Assembly (NCBI GenBank): GCA_900321005.1
Contig: ONUF01000001.1
Span: 62,001-126,000, forward strand
DNA: 64,000 bases
Direction of reading: 5' to 3'
Origin: an uncultured Bacteroidales bacterium
GTDB lineage: Bacteria > Bacteroidota > Bacteroidia > Bacteroidales > Paludibacteraceae
The position numbers were made by a program, and so were the translations under genes. Below, piece by piece: positions 52,060-60,918 of the stretch. Numbering within the stretch: the stretch's first letter is position 1; each line of letters opens with the position of its first letter. The notes beneath the pieces are model-generated. The model did no database searches. It was not told where the DNA came from and saw nothing but the letters and a program-made list of their open reading frames with translations.

Positions 52060-55000
52060 CTACTTGACTTGTACACCTGTCGGGGTGAAGATCTTACCGT
52101 CGCGGAGGATGTAGATCATGCCATCCATGAAGACTTTTGTACTTTGTACTTGGTCGCTTTGTACATCGTCGATGCCCTGCGACACTTTCTTCGGCGTTAT
52201 CGTGATGGAATAGATATAAGCACCGGCATCTTCTCCTTCTTTCTCGGATCGTGCGATACGTGCGGGTGCAGCCGCTTCGGACGTACCCTCCAGATAAATG
52301 ACGACGTAGGTCTTCTGTGCCACGGAATAGGTGACGGTAGCTTTGCCACGCAGCGCCTGTTCGACGGTGGAAGTGATATACGCTTCGCCGTATTCGGCTA
52401 TACGCACTTTGATGGTATATCCGGGCAGGGTCTGGCAGTCAATCTCTATCTTACCTTCTCCCGGACCTTCCAACTCGAACGTGATGGTTCCGGGCAGGAG
52501 GGAACGGAGCGAGGCTGCGCCTTCGAAGGCGTCATTGAGCTTCTGGTCTATCTCCTCTGCCGTATTCGTAGTGGAGATCTCTATGCGTCCTTCCGTGCTG
52601 TTGTACTTATCCGAGGCACCGAGTGTCACGTCTATAAGTTCAGAGTTGTTCGGGTCAATGACTGTGAAGTCGAAGGTGGTCGTTTCATCGTTCGGCAGCG
52701 GCTGAAGATCTTTCTCGGTGAAATATCCCGGGTTGTCCTCTTTATCCGGATGGGCGTAGGCGGCGTCGGTATGGTTCTCGTCATATGTCGTACCCATACC
52801 ACCGACAAGCGAGGTGCAGCCCTTGAACATATCTTCAGATAGGCTTATCTTGCTCCAATCCTCGTTGCACAAGATGGTGGTCAAGGCCTTGCAATCTCTG
52901 AAAGTTTGTATCGCAATCAGATACTTTGTACTGAACGAAGTGAGGTCAAGCGAAACAAGAGAATGACAATCAGCAAACATACCGCTAATATTATTCACGA
53001 TGGCAGCATTGAAATGACTGAGGTCAATGGATGTGAGTGACGAACAACCTTCGAACATACTCCACATCACTTCCACTTTATCGACAACAAGGTTCTCCAT
53101 GCCCTCGATCTTCGTCATCTTCGACAAAGAATAGTAGATATAATTTCCGTTTATTTCTTCATATCCGCCGTAGAACAAATTTCTCATTGATGTGAGTCCG
53201 GCTTCTTTCATAGACTCGTCAATGACAGCCTTCAAGACTTGGTCGTGATAATCCTCGAAACGTACTGCATCCGGGTTGTTTACCGGATCGTAGGGTTCCG
53301 TGATTTCGCCTGCCGCTCTGTGTACTGCGCGTTGGTCGTCGTAGTAATAGGTGAGGATACCTGTCGTCTCACTGAATGCGGTATAGACTTCGGTTTTCTT
53401 CTCGAAGAAGTACCCGGGGTCGCTCTTGCCACCGTCCGGATGAGCGTAGGCGGCGTCAGTATGGTTCTCATCATACGTTGTGCCGTTGCCGCCGACAAGC
53501 GAGGTGCAGCCATTGAACATGCCATTCGAATTGGTCAATACCGTGCTTGCGCTCAAATCCTTGTTGCAAAAAATGGTCTGCAATGCAGAACAACCGGAGA
53601 ACATATATTCCATATCCGTCACTTTCTCTGTATTGAACTTGCTCAGGTCAAGAGACGTAAGAGCCCCACAGTTTCTGAACATATATTCCATAATTGTTAC
53701 CTTTTCGGTATTGAACGTACTCAGGTCAAGAGACGTAAGAGCCCCACAGTCATCGAACATACCGCTCATATTCGTCACCTTCTCTGTATTGAACTTGCTC
53801 AGGTCAAGAGACGTGAGTTTTTCGCAGCCGTAGAACATGTAACTCATCTTGGTCACCTTGCCAGTGTTGAACGAACTCAGGTCAAGAGACGTAAGGGACT
53901 TACAGCCGTAGAACATCTCAGCCATATCCTCCACATTGGACGTATTGAACGAACTCAGGTCAAGAGAAGTAAGGTTCTCACATTCACCGAACATAGCAGG
54001 CATATCCGTCACATTAGACGTATTGAACGAACTGAGGTCAAGAGAGTTAAGACGGGAACAGTTGCAGAACATGTATCTCATGTTGGTCACGTTCTCTGTA
54101 TTGAACTTGCTCAGATCAAGAGAGGTCAAGGAGTAACAGTGGTAGAACATAGCACTCATATTCGTCACATCATCGGTCACAAGGTTCTCCATGCCTTCTA
54201 TTTCCGTCATTTCCGACAAATTTAAATCCGTGTAATTTCCATCTATATCTCCATATCCCGTCCCATAGAACATATTTTTCATCGAAGTGAGCCCTGCATT
54301 TTTCATCGATTCGTCAATCACAGCCTTTTTCACTTGGTCGTAATAGTCCTTGAAACGTATTGCATCCGGATCGTTTACCGGATCGTATGGTTCGGTAATT
54401 TCGCCTGCTGCTTCATGTGCTGCGCGCTGGTCATTGTAATAATACGTCAGCGTTCCGGTAGTCGCATCGAAGACGGTATATACCTCCGGCCCGGTGATCA
54501 CTGCCTTTTCGGTGAAGTAACCCGGGTTGCCCTCTTTATCCGGATGGGCGTAAGCGACGCTGGTATGACTCGAATCATACTTCGTTCCGTTGCCGCCGAC
54601 CAGAGACCTGCAGCCTTCGAACATATTCGTCGAAGAGGCCAATACCGTGCTCTCGTTCCAGGAATTATTGCAGTAGATCGTTGTCAACCACATGCACGCG
54701 AAGAACATGTTACTCATGTTGGTCACCTTGCCGGTATTGAACGAATTGAGATTCAGTTCGGTAAGTGATGAGCACTCGTAGAACATGTTACTCATGTTGG
54801 TCACGTTCGCGGTGTTGAACGAACTCAGGTCGAGCTTGGCGAGGCCGGAGCAGGAATAGAACATGCCGCTCATATCCTCCACGTAGTCAGTTACAAGATT
54901 ATCCAGACCCTCAACCGAAGACAGATTGGTCAAACCGTAAACCTCTTCGTGGCTTCCGACCATCTGGGTTCCTGCACAAAACATGTTCTTTGTCGAGGTA

Positions 55001-58000
55001 AGACGGGCGTCCTGCATAGAGGAATGAATAATGGCTTTGGTCACTTTTTGACGATAGCCTTTGAAGCGCATTTTTTCCGGATTATATAATTCGGTTCTGC
55101 CGTCGCGCGAGAAACGCTGGTTGTCGTAGTAGTAGGTCAGGATGCCCGTGGACTCATCGAACGCGGTATAGACTTCCGTATCATCCTTGAAGGTGAAGTA
55201 GCCTGCCTGCCCTGTTATGTCCGGACGGGCGTACATCTTGTTGGTAAAGTACTCATTGTATGCCGTTCCATTACCGCCTTTAAGCACGCTGCAGTTATAG
55301 AACATCGCGGTATGAGTGCTCAATGCCTGGCTTAAACTCCAGTCGCTGTTGCAGTAGATGGTTGTCAGTGCCGAGCAGTTGAAGAACATTTGCTGCATGT
55401 TGGTAACTTTGTCGGTCTTGAACGAACGGACATCCAGTTCGGTCAGTTTGCTACAACCGGAGAACATATCTTTCATGTTCGTCACGTTGACGGTATAGAG
55501 GTTGCTGAGGTCCAGCTCTTTCAAACCGGTACAATACTTGAACATGCCGCTCATATCCGTCACGTTCTCGGTGTTGAGCGGGCTCAGATCGAGCTTTTCA
55601 AGTGAGGTACTCCATGCGAACATTTCGTGCATATCCGTCACCTTGTCGGTGTTAAGCGGGCTCAGATCGAGTTCAGTCAGTCCCGAACAGCCGTAGAACA
55701 TAGCGCTCATGTTCTCCACCTTCTCGGTGTTGAGAGAACTCAGGTCGAGTTTGGCGAGGCCGGAGCAGGAATAGAACATGCCGCTCATATCCGTCACGTT
55801 GAAGGTGTTGAGGTTCTCCATACCGGTGATTTGCGTGAGGTTGTGCAGGCGATAGCTGTTGCTCACTCCGTCCACCGTCTCCTCTCCGCCGTAGAACATG
55901 TTTTTGGTGGAAGTCAGTTTGGCTTCCGTCATGGAGGCGTCTATGACAGCTTTTGTTATCAATGCGTTGTAGTCCTTGAAGCGGACTGCATCGGGGTCGT
56001 TGACGGGGTCATAGAACACGATGACACCTTCGCGGTAGTTATACTGGTCGTCGTAGTAATAGGTGAGCGTATAGGAGCTGGCGTCGTACTCGGTATATAC
56101 CTTCGGTTCTGCCGGCTCTCTCACATCGGCTACCAAACGTACCGACTGACCGAAATAGAGGGTGCGGTCTTTGGTCGCATTATTGCTTGAGGAGGAGAAG
56201 TAGTCGCTGAAAGCACGCTGTGCCGAGTAAGCCGTAGAGGACCAGTAGTAACCTACCGAGCCCGGAGAGCTGACCGTGTTCGACACGCCGTTGTAATAGC
56301 GATAACCTGCTGCGGGGAGGAAGACAGCACCTGCCTCCTGCATCTTGCCCCACTGCTCGGAAGTGTAGTTGTTCACAACATAGTAGAAGTCGGATACCAT
56401 GCCTGCGGTAAACTGGCAACCTTCTGGCAGCTTCCACGAGTCGGGCAGGATGACGATACCAGCGATGTCATTGACTTTGGCGGCACCGTACTTGTCGGCG
56501 GCATCGGCACGGTAGCTGAACAGGTAGTTCCACTCGTCGGATGTCAGGGTGCGCCATGTGCCCGGAGCATCCGTGCCGATGGGGTTCGTACCCCAGTCCG
56601 TGAACAAAGAGTAGTCTGCGCTGGTAGTGGACGTCTTGGTAGGAGCATTGCCCGTACCCCAACCGAAAAGGTCTATCCAACCCTCGTAGGTGTCGGAGAT
56701 ATTGGCATTGTTCACTCCGTAGTAGTCCCACTCATGCTCGGCGAAACTCCATGTGCCGGTGGATGCCTGGTAGCGCAGGTTGCCCGGCGAGAACTGCACC
56801 TTCTTCTTGTCGCCTACGGTGAACGACGTGTGGTCGTCATCATCGCCGCCACCGCCGCTTACGGGAACGAAGATGGCGGAAACGGTCAGGTCTTCACGTA
56901 CGGTCACATAGCGCGGGTTGGCGGTGCTGCCGTCCGACCAACGGCTGAACTTGTAGTCTTTGTCCGGCGTAGCGGTCAGCTTTGCCACTTGACCTTTCTG
57001 GTATGTTCCGCTTCCCTTAGCCGTGCCGTGACCTTCCGAACTGACGGTGATCGTGAAGGATGGTGCATCCTCAGGGACACGTACCAAGCGCACGCTGCGA
57101 CCATAATGGTTGTAATAGCCGGCACTGGGGGAGGCAGTGGTTCGCCCGAAGAAGAAATAGCGGCCTTGTGACTGGCTGAACTGCGAGTTGATCCAATAGT
57201 AACCGTATGCATCAAAGAAGGACAGGTCAAGCAAATTGCCGTTGCGGTAACCGGCTGCCGGCAGGAAGATGGCACCCGCCCTCTCCATGCGATACCAGCT
57301 GAAGTCGTCGAACACATTGTCGTTCCAGTCGTTCGTTCCTACCTCCTGGTCTTTTCCGTGCCAGGTGAAAGTGAGGCCTGCCGGCGTCTGGAAATCGTCT
57401 GGCAGGAGAATATAGCCGTGTACGCCGTTGACGGTGCCGTGACCGCGCAGGTTGCCGGCAAATTGTCGCAGGTTGAGCAGGTGGGTCCATTCGCTGATGC
57501 TCATCGTACGCCATGTACCCGGCGCGTCGTTTTCTATCTGATTGTAAACGCCCCAGTCCGCGTATGCGTGATCCCCGACAAGTCCTTCCTCGCTATACAG
57601 ATAGTCCGCCGACTCCTTGCTCGCCGACCACGGCTGATATGCCTTGGCACCGCTGTCCCAGCCGCTGGTAGCCCAGCCGAACAGGTCAATCAGACCGTAG
57701 TAGGACTCGGAGATATTCTTGTTGTCTTCGCCGATATAGTTCCACTGGTTGGTAGCGAAACGCCACGAACCCGGCTGCGTCGTACCGTCAGCGCAGGCGT
57801 GAGAACCGCGAGCGGCGTTGAACTGAAGGTTACCCTGCGAGAACTGTATCTGGTCGCCTTCATCGTTGATGGTGAACCGTCCGTTGGGGTAGTCGGGACG
57901 TGTGAAATAACCTGGCTGTCCCTCTCCTCTGTCCATGCGGGCGTATGTCTTGTCGGTATGAGTACCGTCGAACGGACTGCCCATGCCGCCTGTCAGCGAA

Positions 58001-60039
58001 CTGCAACCGTCGAACATCTCGGTCGATGCGGCAGAGGATGCACTCCAGTTGTTCTTGCAATAGATGGTGGTCAGCGAACGGCAGTCGGCGAACACCATGC
58101 TCATCAGCTTGACGTTGTCGAGAATGAAACCGGTCACATCCAGAACCGTGAGCTGCCTGCACCCGAAGAACATAGTGTTGAGGTTCTCTACGTTCCGGGT
58201 GTTGATGGGGGTGACATCCAGATCACGCAAGAACGAGCAGTTCCGGAACATGCCGGACATATCCTTCACGCGGGAGTAGTTGATATTCTCCAGTCCTTCC
58301 ACCCATTCGAGGGCCGTGAGGCTGTTCTCGCCCTTGCCGCCGTAGAACATATTGGCAAGGCTGCGGAGGCTTGCTTTCTTGAACGACTTGTCAATCACCG
58401 CTTTCTTCACTTTGTTGGCATAGCCCTCAAAACGCACGGTGCCGCCGTTCAGAGGCTTGTAGAGCTCTGCTATGGACGTCTGCTCGCGGTCGTGACGAAG
58501 ATCGTCGTAATAGTAGGTCAGGATGCCCGTGGACTCGTCGAAGGCGGTGTAAGCCTCTCTTACCTTGGCCGTGAAGTAACCCTTCGCGCCTTCTTCCGTG
58601 TCCGGAAGGGCGTACGAGTTGTCGATATTGTCCTGACCGTTGCACTCGGTGCCGAATTCACCGACCAGCGAAACGCAGTCGTAGAACATCTCTGACGAGT
58701 TGGCAGGGCTTATGCTCCAGTCCTGGTTGCAATAGATAGCGCTCAGAGACTCGCAACCTGCGAACATCGAGGACATGTCGATGACACCGGAGATGTTGAA
58801 ACTGGTCAGGTTCAGTTCTGTCAATGACGAGCAGCCGTAGAACATTTGGCTCAGGTCTTTTACATTGGCAGTCAGGGCAAGAGGAGTAACATCCAGCTCC
58901 TCAAGCGACGAGCAGCCGAGGAACATGCCGGACAGGTCGGTCACGTTCTCGTAATGGAGCATTTCCAAACCTTCAATCTCCTTCAGGTTCTTGAGAATAC
59001 CTCGCGGACTGGAACCGTAGAACATATTGGCAAGAGTGCGACGGTGAGCGTCTTGCATCGACGGGTACATGATGGCTTTCTTCACCTTCTCGGCATAGCC
59101 CTCGAAGCGCACATAGCCTTCGACATCCTCGGCGGGATAGAGCTCTTCTATGCCATCGTGCGTGCCGCGCAGGTGATCATAATGATATTCGAGCGTACCC
59201 GTCGCTTCGTCGAACACGGTGTAGGTCTCCGTGATGGGAGAGAAATAACCCGGCTCGCTGCTGCCCAAGTCGATGCGGGCGTAGGTCTTGTCGATGTTGT
59301 TCTCGCCGTCGCACGCGGTCCCGGAGACACCAACCAACGAATGACATTCTTTGAACAGATTATGGGATTCCGTCAACGTCTCGCTTGCGCTCCAGTTGTT
59401 GTTGCAATAGATGGTCTTCAGGTCAAAACAGCCGTAGAACATGTCTTGCACCGTCGTCGCCTTGACCATGTCAAAGTTGCGGAGGTTAATCTCTTTGAGT
59501 GCGTGGCAGTCTTTGAACATGGCGTACATGCTCTTCACTTTCCGGGTGTCGAAACTGCTCAGGTTGAGAGACGTGAGCGATTGACAACTGAAGAACATAG
59601 CGTACATATCTGTTACATTCTTCGTGTTGAACCTGCTCAGGTCAACATCCTTCAGTGCGGAACACTGATAGAACATACCATTCATCGATTCCACTTTGTC
59701 CGTGACGAGGTTGCTCATGCCCTCGATGGAAGCCATTTTCCGGAGTCCTTCGAACATTCTGTACATCGAAGTGAGCCCTGCATCTTTCATCGAAGCGTCA
59801 ATGACGGCCTTTGTCACTTGGTCTTTATAGTCCTTGAAACGTTTGGCATCCGGATCGTTCACCGGATCATAGATCTCGGTGATTTCGCCCGAAGCCGTAC
59901 GCGATTCACGCTTGTCGTCATAGTAATAGGTAAGCGTACCTTTTGACTCATTGAAGGAGGTGTAGACCTCTTTGGCTCCGGCCTTGGCGCCAATACTCAG
60001 CAGCACCGCTGCCATCAGTAAGAATAATTTGTTTCGCAT
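52060..60039 (-). CDS. giant BspA-like surface protein with DUF285 repeats
   Basis: A 2659-residue protein with signal peptide (MRNKLFLLMAAVLLSIGAKA). It holds seven modules, each opening with a YTAFDESTGILTYYYDD-type strand pair and a VKKAVIDxSM-type segment. Each continues with DUF285 (BspA-type leucine-rich) repeats such as NVTNMSAMFYGCSGLTELDL. Three modules precede and four follow two copies of a domain similar to the Fibrobacter major paralogous (FISUMP) type (around 57890-57040 and 56830-56110, each with AGAxFLPAAGYR and SVRLV). Between them is a Big-type repeat (YKFSRWSDGSTANPRY). It ends in a short tail (MDGMIYILRDGKIFTPTGVQVK). BspA-type proteins mediate binding to host proteins or other bacteria. 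Start chosen at 60039, 36 bp after the likely transcription start. Confidence 0.9.
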   Translation of the reverse strand: MRNKLFLLMAAVLLSIGAKAGAKEVYTSFNESKGTLTYYYDDKRESRTASGEITEIYDPVNDPDAKRFKDYKDQVTKAVIDASMKDAGLTSMYRMFEGLRKMASIEGMSNLVTDKVESMNGMFYQCSALKDVDLSRFNTKNVTDMYAMFFSCQSLTSLNLSSFDTRKVKSMYAMFKDCHALKEINLRNFDMVKATTVQDMFYGCFDLKTIYCNNNWSASETLTESHNLFKECHSLVGVSGTACDGENNIDKTYARIDLGSSEPGYFSPITETYTVFDEATGTLEYHYDHLRGTHDGIEELYPAEDVEGYVRFEGYAEKVKKAIMYPSMQDAHRRTLANMFYGSSPRGILKNLKEIEGLEMLHYENVTDLSGMFLGCSSLEELDVTPLALTANVKDLSQMFYGCSSLTELNLTSFNISGVIDMSSMFAGCESLSAIYCNQDWSISPANSSEMFYDCVSLVGEFGTECNGQDNIDNSYALPDTEEGAKGYFTAKVREAYTAFDESTGILTYYYDDLRHDREQTSIAELYKPLNGGTVRFEGYANKVKKAVIDKSFKKASLRSLANMFYGGKGENSLTALEWVEGLENINYSRVKDMSGMFRNCSFLRDLDVTPINTRNVENLNTMFFGCRQLTVLDVTGFILDNVKLMSMVFADCRSLTTIYCKNNWSASSAASTEMFDGCSSLTGGMGSPFDGTHTDKTYARMDRGEGQPGYFTRPDYPNGRFTINDEGDQIQFSQGNLQFNAARGSHACADGTTQPGSWRFATNQWNYIGEDNKNISESYYGLIDLFGWATSGWDSGAKAYQPWSASKESADYLYSEEGLVGDHAYADWGVYNQIENDAPGTWRTMSISEWTHLLNLRQFAGNLRGHGTVNGVHGYILLPDDFQTPAGLTFTWHGKDQEVGTNDWNDNVFDDFSWYRMERAGAIFLPAAGYRNGNLLDLSFFDAYGYYWINSQFSQSQGRYFFFGRTTASPSAGYYNHYGRSVRLVRVPEDAPSFTITVSSEGHGTAKGSGTYQKGQVAKLTATPDKDYKFSRWSDGSTANPRYVTVREDLTVSAIFVPVSGGGGDDDDHTSFTVGDKKKVQFSPGNLRYQASTGTWSFAEHEWDYYGVNNANISDTYEGWIDLFGWGTGNAPTKTSTTSADYSLFTDWGTNPIGTDAPGTWRTLTSDEWNYLFSYRADAADKYGAAKVNDIAGIVILPDSWKLPEGCQFTAGMVSDFYYVVNNYTSEQWGKMQEAGAVFLPAAGYRYYNGVSNTVSSPGSVGYYWSSTAYSAQRAFSDYFSSSSNNATKDRTLYFGQSVRLVADVREPAEPKVYTEYDASSYTLTYYYDDQYNYREGVIVFYDPVNDPDAVRFKDYNALITKAVIDASMTEAKLTSTKNMFYGGEETVDGVSNSYRLHNLTQITGMENLNTFNVTDMSGMFYSCSGLAKLDLSSLNTEKVENMSAMFYGCSGLTELDLSPLNTDKVTDMHEMFAWSTSLEKLDLSPLNTENVTDMSGMFKYCTGLKELDLSNLYTVNVTNMKDMFSGCSKLTELDVRSFKTDKVTNMQQMFFNCSALTTIYCNSDWSLSQALSTHTAMFYNCSVLKGGNGTAYNEYFTNKMYARPDITGQAGYFTFKDDTEVYTAFDESTGILTYYYDNQRFSRDGRTELYNPEKMRFKGYRQKVTKAIIHSSMQDARLTSTKNMFCAGTQMVGSHEEVYGLTNLSSVEGLDNLVTDYVEDMSGMFYSCSGLAKLDLSSFNTANVTNMSNMFYECSSLTELNLNSFNTGKVTNMSNMFFACMWLTTIYCNNSWNESTVLASSTNMFEGCRSLVGGNGTKYDSSHTSVAYAHPDKEGNPGYFTEKAVITGPEVYTVFDATTGTLTYYYNDQRAAHEAAGEITEPYDPVNDPDAIRFKDYYDQVKKAVIDESMKNAGLTSMKNMFYGTGYGDIDGNYTDLNLSEMTEIEGMENLVTDDVTNMSAMFYHCYSLTSLDLSKFNTENVTNMRYMFCNCSRLNSLDLSSFNTSNVTDMPAMFGECENLTSLDLSSFNTSNVEDMAEMFYGCKSLTSLDLSSFNTGKVTKMSYMFYGCEKLTSLDLSKFNTEKVTNMSGMFDDCGALTSLDLSTFNTEKVTIMEYMFRNCGALTSLDLSKFNTEKVTDMEYMFSGCSALQTIFCNKDLSASTVLTNSNGMFNGCTSLVGGNGTTYDENHTDAAYAHPDGGKSDPGYFFEKKTEVYTAFSETTGILTYYYDDQRAVHRAAGEITEPYDPVNNPDAVRFEDYHDQVLKAVIDESMKEAGLTSMRNLFYGGYEEINGNYIYYSLSKMTKIEGMENLVVDKVEVMWSMFEGCSSLTSIDLSHFNAAIVNNISGMFADCHSLVSLDLTSFSTKYLIAIQTFRDCKALTTILCNEDWSKISLSEDMFKGCTSLVGGMGTTYDENHTDAAYAHPDKEDNPGYFTEKDLQPLPNDETTTFDFTVIDPNNSELIDVTLGASDKYNSTEGRIEISTTNTAEEIDQKLNDAFEGAASLRSLLPGTITFELEGPGEGKIEIDCQTLPGYTIKVRIAEYGEAYITSTVEQALRGKATVTYSVAQKTYVVIYLEGTSEAAAPARIARSEKEGEDAGAYIYSITITPKKVSQGIDDVQSDQVQSTKVFMDGMIYILRDGKIFTPTGVQVK

Positions 60040-60080
60040 AATGTTTGATTTATTTATATTTGCATCCAATTTTGCCACTG

Positions 60081-60112
60081 CAAAATTACAAATATTTATT
60101 GATATATGCAAA
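60081..60112 (-). promoter_or_regulatory. Bacteroidota-type promoter of the BspA-like gene
   Basis: Minus strand: TTTG (60112-60109), 20 nt, TAATTTTG (60088-60081). Confidence 0.8.
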
Positions 60113-60212
60113 TAATCTTTTAAAAATAAGCGAAACAATCACAAAAAGTGGCCGTAGAGCACAAAAAATTACAATAATTTTTCGACATACGCAAGAAAAA
60201 GATACACAAATA

Positions 60213-60244: not shown

Positions 60245-60302
60245 CAGCCGATTTTGATGAAAATCGAGCCGCGATGGTGGAATCGGTAGACACGAAGGAC
60301 TT

Positions 60303-60856
60303 TAGCGAAACAGTTTTTGTTTATGTCTAAACGAAAATGGACTGATCAAGATTTTGTTGAAGCGGTGCGTACAAGTTTCTCTTACGCGCAAGTAATTGCG
60401 AAATTACATTTACGCGTAGCGGGCAGCAACTACGATACCGTCAAACGCAAAATTGAAGAGTTACACCTTTGCTCCGCGAAGGCGTGAAACAGCGTAAATG
60501 TGAGTGCTGCGGATTGACAGAATGGCAAGGTCAACCTATAGCGTTGGAGTTACATCACATCAATGCTATTCGCGATGACCAGCGATTGGAAAACCTCCAA
60601 TTGCTATGCCCCAATTGTCATGCCCTTACTACCAACTATCGAGGTAAGAACAAAGGTAAAGAGTGCTCAGGTCGAAAGGCCTGAAGTAGAAGTGGGCTAA
60701 TTCGGAGAATGTAGCAGCCTTTAAATGCTAAGAACGCCGAGCTAAGTGGCGGAAACGCCTAAATGTGTAGAGACTATATACCCACAACCTACCTCCTTAG
60801 GGACACGGTTAAGACATAGTCCAAGCAGACGCTGAGTGATCGACAGCGAATGTACG
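60303..60856 (+). ncRNA. group I self-splicing intron in tRNA-Leu(UAA)
   Basis: A 554-nt intron with the sequence hallmarks of group I: the exon ends in U and the intron ends in G (60856). Conserved core elements are in order: Q-like AACGCCGAGCTAAG (60733-60746), a P5-type hairpin GGCG-GAAA-CGCC (60748-60759), R-like GTGTAGAGACTA (60765-60776) and S-like AAGACATAGTCC (60811-60822). P7 is a perfect 6-bp pair GACTAT (60772-60777) with ATAGTC (60816-60821). A closing hairpin CGCTG/CAGCG (60830-60848) fits P9. A possible guide pairing for P1 is ACTT of the exon with GAGT at 60661-60664 (U-G at the splice site), followed by a P2-like hairpin at 60667-60684. That would put the protein-coding insert inside the P1 loop. 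P1, P3 and P8 were not folded with certainty. Confidence 0.87.
60323..60684 (+). pseudogene. broken HNH homing endonuclease gene inside the intron
   Basis: Two overlapping frames match the two ends of one HNH endonuclease. Frame 1 (60323-60487, 54 residues) has the DNA-binding start typical of intron HNH proteins (KRKWTDQDFVEAVRTSFSYA, then NYDTVKRKIEELHL) and stops early. Frame 2 (60469-60684) has the nuclease half: zinc-type CECCGLTEW, the HNH core LELHHINAIRDDQRLENLQL and CPNCHALTTNYRGKNK. The usual middle part of about 35-40 residues is missing and the frames differ, so a deletion with frameshift is the simplest reading. The active-site residues remain intact, so the loss is probably recent. 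A programmed frameshift is unlikely. Confidence 0.82.
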
Positions 60857-60918
60857 AAAATCCTTTGGCCAGTGATGGCTGTGTGGGTTCAAGTCCCACT
60901 CGCGGTACGAATTTTCTT

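Follow-up and report, generated by a model that had tools for sequence, protein, structure and literature searches.

Among ancient introns, the one in tRNA-Leu(UAA) is the textbook example. In cyanobacteria and plastids it belongs to group IC3 and lies after U34, the site that is occupied in the locus described here, and to our knowledge these introns carry no endonuclease gene. Group IC3 introns are typically without P7.1/P7.2 and without P5abc and have a P2 capped by a GNRA loop, while a P7.1/P7.2 insertion between P7 and P3 is the mark of group IA.

Split tRNA-Leu(UAA) genes have been described earlier outside the cyanobacteria; the accessible text of that account does not determine the intron type and mentions no endonuclease. 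Introns in phage tRNA genes were reported for the Lak megaphages as "enigmatic", with none known in phages before (PMC6784885). The main text of that paper does not use the term "group I", and the intron it names for the baboon Lak genomes is in tRNA-Tyr, not tRNA-Leu; one of these phages, Lak-B1, has members of the family described here. Likewise the term "intron" is absent from the main text of the paper on Agrobacterium phage Atu_ph07 (PMC6102473). Collaborative homing, which involves a free-standing endonuclease and an ORF-less intron (PMC3984707), has a parallel in one of our loci (L081), but the cases described in the accessible sections of that source are from phages, and according to it the phage introns known by 2014 all lay in protein genes, whereas in our locus it is a tRNA gene that is targeted. 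A cyanobacterial tRNA-fMet intron endonuclease, cited there by title, is also intron-encoded and aimed at the anticodon region of a tRNA, although a different one. SegB of T4 is likewise a homing endonuclease whose gene stands free in a cluster of phage tRNA genes (PMC13096335), but it is a GIY-YIG enzyme, unlike the HNH protein here, and the part of that paper available to us mentions no tRNA introns.

In the window, that is, the whole stretch of 64,000 nucleotides that was analysed, the tRNA-Leu(UAA) gene is divided on the (+) strand into a 5' exon (60268–60302), which ends in C32 U33 U34, and a 3' exon (60857–60908), which begins with A35 A36. Both exons were delimited from the sequence and with ARAGORN, the 5' exon also by comparison with intronless genes of the same genus and the 3' exon by DNA searches of genomes. 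Between U34 and A35, as the initial annotation had it, lies a 554-nt insert (60303–60856, +), preceded by the U of the exon and ending in G (omega-G). Joining 60302 to 60857 does restore the gene: on the joined segments 60268–60302 and 60857–60908 ARAGORN calls an intact tRNA-Leu(UAA). With introns allowed, the program finds the split gene with its 554-nt insert, although with the boundary shifted by one base and the label Phe/GAA. We rejected that label as a boundary-slide artefact; since intronless genes of the genus read CTTAAAA across the joint, the exon/intron boundaries are fixed, and the Phe and Ser labels given by ARAGORN to split genes were taken for boundary slides. Run without the intron option, ARAGORN finds one tRNA in the whole window and none at 60268–60908, and split genes of this kind may explain tRNA-Leu(UAA) genes that are "missing" from annotations.

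The genome to which the window belongs (G000) has 43 tRNA-model matches, 41 of them above the cut-off, which include intact Leu genes with the anticodons GAG, CAG, TAG and CAA; no intact tRNA-Leu(UAA) is found among the 43 in this assembly, which is 78% complete. Searched at the DNA level, G000 has a single place that matches the 3' portion of the locus. UUA, which is read by the UAA-anticodon tRNA only, accounts for 90 of the 13,137 codons in the 13 window ORFs of at least 300 aa (predicted ORFs, not confirmed genes). Since UUA codons are in use and no intact UAA gene was found, the gene in the window must very probably be spliced. It is very improbable that this is a dead insertion, an intron which no longer splices while another tRNA-Leu(UAA) does the job. 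Because the genome is 78% complete a second gene may be unassembled, the endonuclease gene is broken and the Rfam score of the window is low (see below); but no second intact copy, which the initial annotation had named, in combination with absent splicing, as a sign of a dead insertion, was found, the core helices and guide are present, and the exons are like those of intronless genes.

The insert is a group I intron, as proposed from the letters alone. An internal guide sequence, GAGUGC (60661–60666, +), pairs by inspection with the exon sequence ACUU, U34 forming a U·G wobble at the splice site; behind it stands a P3/P7 pseudoknot with covariation in P3, and the last base is G. The elements follow on the (+) strand as a P2 hairpin with a GAAA loop (60667–60684; from the sequence, core alignment and fold), the 5' strand of P3 (60692–60696, partner 60781–60785; from covariation), the 5' strand of P4 (60701–60705, partner 60737–60741; from core alignment and fold, a register absent in six type-B rows), a P6 hairpin (60748–60759; from the fold), the 5' strand of the guanosine-binding helix P7 (60772–60777, partner 60816–60821), P8 (AACC/GGUU, 60786–60810), in which all alignment cells are paired, and a P9 hairpin (60830–60848, stem 60830–60834 with 60844–60848; from sequence and fold). 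The 6 bp of P7 and the P9-like hairpin had both been noticed before and are traced by inspection. A covariance model (R1) matches 60686–60822 (+) with 111.9 bits, the window sequence being one of its 28 model-building rows.

Covariation was assessed over 28 aligned cores and 21 pairs. Changes on both sides occur in 10 of the 21 pairs; the double-change cells number 86, where shuffling gives 29.8 on average, and 90.5% of the cells in the aligned core are paired versus 30–38% in slid controls. Five columns of P3 are paired in every one of the 28 rows, with two to three pair types and changes on both sides, and its sixth pair fails in 13 rows; in P7 five of the six pairs are invariant and the sixth is unpaired in 13. 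In the common register P4 does not form in the type-B introns (6 of the 28 rows). The single-sequence fold of the window intron is modestly better than those of its shuffles (z −2.21). The Rfam group I model (RF00028), a check that had been recommended, hits the window with 21.8 bits (E 0.034), below its cut-off of 50, and exceeds that cut-off in the relatives L096 (53.3 bits), L118 (52.1) and L199 (51.2); beyond these 3 of 13 sources, four (L183, L091, L081 and L002) score 30–49 and six (L016, L084, L150, L182, L328 and L329) have no match listed at E 0.01. The guide GAGUGC lies 3' of the ORF in all 46 parsed chromosomal introns (42 distinct cores) and is present in 43 of the 44 parsed viral ones, while the terminal G is found in 46/46 and 44/44. 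In L081, which is ORF-less, GAGUGC lies 33 nt 3' of the 5' splice site.

Read from the core alignment and fold features, the layout of the window intron looks IC3-like, and it presumably resembles the Azoarcus intron. With the cyanobacterial and plastid intron, as that is generally described, it shares the tRNA, apparently the site, and a seemingly IC3-like layout lacking P7.1/P7.2 and P5abc; it differs in that many introns of its family have an HNH gene in the P1 loop, and in that the family is sporadic and also found in phages. The initial annotation had preferred a phage-type group IA intron that arrived by independent insertion. There is an R-like motif and an HNH gene, and related introns do occur in phages, but only 3 nt (60778–60780) separate P7 from P3, so that P7.1/P7.2 are absent, which argues against group IA and led us to reject that assignment. 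The phage relatives, too, are tRNA-Leu introns and occupy that very position, and we regard the combination of group IA and independent insertion as hardly credible. The phage link is real all the same, by way of phage tRNA introns of the same type.

An ORF for an HNH endonuclease occupies the space between the 5' splice site and the guide, that is, the P1 loop. In the window it survives as an N-terminal fragment (60326–60487, +), of which L002 has the intact homologue, and a C-terminal fragment with the HNH motif in another frame (60469–60684, +; PF01844, 29.6 bits, cut-off 21.4). The HNH type named in the initial annotation is borne out by the C-terminal fragment, but the break of the gene into two frames had gone unmentioned. 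The window intron is 90.3% identical to that of G022 (500/554 columns); its ORF has lost 133 nt by deletion, and one more gap, of a single base, lies elsewhere in the intron. The intact protein (L002 type) is 166 aa long and has an HNH domain. C105, C108, H124, N136, C141, C144 and H145 are invariant in 38 HNH proteins of relatives, and their conservation in intact relatives suggests selection for mobility. PF01844 is above its cut-off in three of six HNH proteins tested, and phrog_10822 is matched by all five tested (E 1e-42 to 1e-49). The predicted structure of the intact protein (mean pLDDT 83.7, pTM 0.52) has N-terminal helices and, at the C-terminal HNH motif, two strands with helices; among solved structures there is no sequence match below E 0.3 and no fold match at E 0.001, the best being EcoKMcrA (4.3e-3). 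The tRNA-fMet intron endonuclease, which we take to be I-SspI, presumably has a different nuclease fold.

In type-C introns, for example L096 (2231–2851), the HNH frame runs on into the ribozyme core, so translation and folding may compete. The ORF also runs through the core toward the P8 loop in the phage copies L141, L152, L155 and L157, and in L122.

We consider it highly probable that the window holds an IC3-like self-splicing intron of a homing lineage whose HNH gene is here broken. The pre-tRNA would fold such that GAGUGC pairs with the exon ACUU; guanosine bound in P7 would cut after U34, and the freed exon would attack after the terminal G, leaving a normal tRNA-Leu(UAA). The HNH endonuclease presumably cuts intronless tRNA-Leu genes, and repair would copy the intron in; that it cuts tRNA-Leu DNA we infer from the position of its gene inside or beside tRNA-Leu genes. 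With its endonuclease gene broken, the copy in the window should splice and should no longer move by itself. The giant phages, whose tRNA-Leu genes carry relatives of both the intron and the endonuclease, would be the likely vehicle or reservoir.

Related genomes do contain the split gene, for which a search had been advised: of the 178 genomes examined in the genus, 24 match model R1 (13 of the 68 high-quality ones). A search with the uninterrupted gene matched 161 of the 178, and at least 136 have an uninterrupted, near-full-length gene (at least 80 of 87 bases). G027 and G488, both among the 136, show the intron plus a full-length copy (contamination 7% and 5%, respectively). In the remaining genomes with the intron the top match is, among the matches listed, either the 3' exon alone or weaker than every full-length copy, and G556 has no match to the intronless gene among those listed. 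Twenty loci from the 24 genomes were fetched and 19 parsed (all except L188); every one of the 19 introns lies between tRNA-Leu(UAA) exons. The HNH gene is intact in nine, broken in three (the window included) and a deleted remnant in three, and four introns are ORF-less; the lengths are 685–690 nt with an intact HNH gene (669 nt for type B), 284–376 nt for the remnants and 221–239 nt for the ORF-less introns. A single genus therefore displays the empty site and the intact, decaying and lost endonuclease. Since versions of the intron with a candidate endonuclease are found in tRNA-Leu(UAA) of Bacteroidota and giant phages, apparently at the same position, and the stages occur in one genus, the spread of tRNA-Leu introns becomes directly testable.

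Host relations were judged by one gene, rsmF, and 17 of 45 pairs were without an rsmF sequence. The intron is more similar than rsmF in 23 of 28 pairs, with one tie and four lower values, all five involving G459, in which the HNH ORF is largely deleted; in pairs without G459 the count is 21/21. The G000 intron is nearest to those of G022, G548 and G508 (90%), while its rsmF is nearer to G556, G517 and G512, and the best rsmF match to G000 among 14 genomes searched is G003, which is intronless. Core types A and B share one site inside the genus, and type C occurs in G027, possibly by contamination. One might still imagine an old Bacteroidales intron that descended vertically, evolved slowly, did no homing and was lost many times. 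Structurally constrained introns may evolve slowly, type C is one clade in both trees described below, and four pairs out of the 28, each of them involving G459, have the intron as the less similar partner; the two core types at one site in one genus (with C in G027, contamination permitting), the discordant relations of intron and rsmF, and the conserved HNH residues of intact relatives nevertheless make this account very improbable. Intact HNH genes in relatives and the discordance between intron and gene indicate, at the level of sequence comparison, that the lineage is mobile. Horizontal movement, one of two origins offered earlier, agrees with this discordance and with the sporadic presence in the genus.

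Beyond the genus, genome contigs scanned with two short peptide patterns, taken from two HNH proteins, yielded at least 66 loci. In 42 of the 66 the intron was parsed between tRNA-Leu(UAA) exons; the remaining 24 are cut by a contig end, masked, otherwise unparsed, or free-standing HNH genes. By their record titles the 42 come from Bacteroidales, Bacteroidia or one of the families in them; the exceptions are L096 ("Bacterium") and L123 (Candidatus Cacconaster). Three core types, A (that of the window), B and C, have the same tRNA-Leu site in common. The model matches 3 of 393 genomes in an order-level sample, the window genome included. The initial annotation knew of no well-described case in this phylum; no description of a tRNA-Leu(UAA) intron in Bacteroidota was found in the literature searched, but 22 of 395 genomes of a phylum-level sample, again counting that of the window, match the model. 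Nine phylum-sample loci were read: six introns lie, by inspection, between tRNA-Leu(UAA) exons (two of them labelled Ser by ARAGORN, and one with an HNH gene) and three in tRNA-Arg(UCU). Plasmids gave one weak record only.

The tRNA-Arg(UCU) loci (L332, L333 and L334) are chromosomal introns of the window type from one family of the phylum, in which at least seven genomes have two model matches each. In another Bacteroidales family L182 (1400–1720) has a window-type intron in a gene that by inspection appears to be tRNA-Ile(UAU), at the matching anticodon position. In L136 (2030–3013) a type-C intron without an ORF interrupts tRNA-Leu, and after this gene comes a second, truncated intron-like copy which still has the HNH ORF.

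Among viral loci of the HNH set the model finds the intron in eight (L141, L150, L152–L155, L157 and L177), which by inspection are split tRNA-Leu(UAA) genes, except that L157 has an aberrant 3' exon and is of unsure identity. The viral loci picked up by two pattern scans number 119; in 77 of them ARAGORN calls a tRNA with an intron that covers the motif, and of these 62 are labelled Leu(UAA) and a few Lys, Ala or others. Strict parsing retained 44 viral tRNA-Leu(UAA) introns, 43 of them with GAGTGC. Many viral-contig introns of 190–196 nt are on short contigs that could be host DNA, and we relied on the named or giant phage records: Agrobacterium phage Atu_ph07, the 735-kb LR756501, LR756511 and Prevotella phage Lak-B1. 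The HNH protein is matched in 214 phage records, of which four regions were read for the HNH question.

Several viral loci have features of their own. In Lak-B1 (L330, MK250020, 1170–1913) one tRNA-Leu(UAA) gene holds two group I-like introns, a 309-nt one in the D-loop and a 348-nt one in the anticodon loop. Both follow a U and end in G, and both are matched by the model, with 46.4 and 40.7 bits. Window-type introns on viral contigs are placed by ARAGORN in tRNA-Lys(UUU) and tRNA-Ala(UGC) in L316, L318 and L242, and bear other labels in L314, L320, L325 and L326. The phage HNH gene of L154 (2501–2980) contains two TAG codons in frame; in relatives Gln stands in place of at least one of them, as expected of a TAG-recoding phage. 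L238 (3732–4401) is a tRNA-Leu(UAA)-like intron on a phage contig with a different HNH-like frame and without the GAGTGC guide.

Relatives of the HNH gene also occur outside introns. In records titled Hymenobacter, Lachnospiraceae, Acidimicrobium, Pseudonocardia, Patescibacteria and others the ORF for this HNH protein lies directly against an intact tRNA-Leu (UAA, UAG or CAA) or overlaps it. The 55 loci of this set were reduced to 42 by dereplication and to 35 by taking out seven that are intron-borne; 31 have a tRNA. In 27 of these 31 the nearest tRNA is Leu, as against 34 of the 142 other tRNAs present there (Fisher p 6e-11). The exceptions are L171, L173, L175 and L179 (S-CRM01); the opposite end of the gene annotated in L179 does overlap a tRNA-Leu. 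No tRNA was called in L080, L095, L176 (Dulem virus 42) and L081; the last has an ORF-less intron in tRNA-Leu and the HNH gene some 90 nt downstream of the tRNA. In L083 (2966–3049), L119, L128 and L129 the free-standing HNH frame enters the tRNA-Leu gene and stops inside it.

In a tree of 60 HNH proteins the intron-borne genes of types A, B and C stand apart, each near free-standing or phage genes. A single clade of A, B and C is rejected (p-AU 0.0007), as is one of A and C (0.007); monophyly of the type-A proteins is not (0.368), so that their apparent intermingling with free-standing ones is uncertain. The core tree (90 cores, 138 columns), for which the bootstrap was unsettled and long branches, including L154, were flagged, has chromosomal introns interspersed with viral ones. 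There B groups with viral introns (100/97), C forms a clade among viral ones (97/95), and A joins the viral L154, a long row, on a 100/99 branch. The trees suggest at least three intron–HNH lineages in Bacteroidales. One could go further and propose, tentatively and with the odds rather against it, that phage tRNA genes are the reservoir of mobile tRNA-Leu introns, and that one HNH family specialised on tRNA-Leu genes, whose members stand free beside such genes in phages and in bacteria of several phyla, has entered tRNA-Leu(UAA) introns more than once. The trnL intron of cyanobacteria and plastids, with no endonuclease known in it, would then be a domesticated survivor of that pool instead of an anciently vertical one.

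Beside the tRNA gene of the window, on the opposite strand, lies an ORF of 2692 aa (52060–60138, −), composed of repeated units of the form MF..C..L..LDLS.FNT..V and resembling a giant surface repeat protein.
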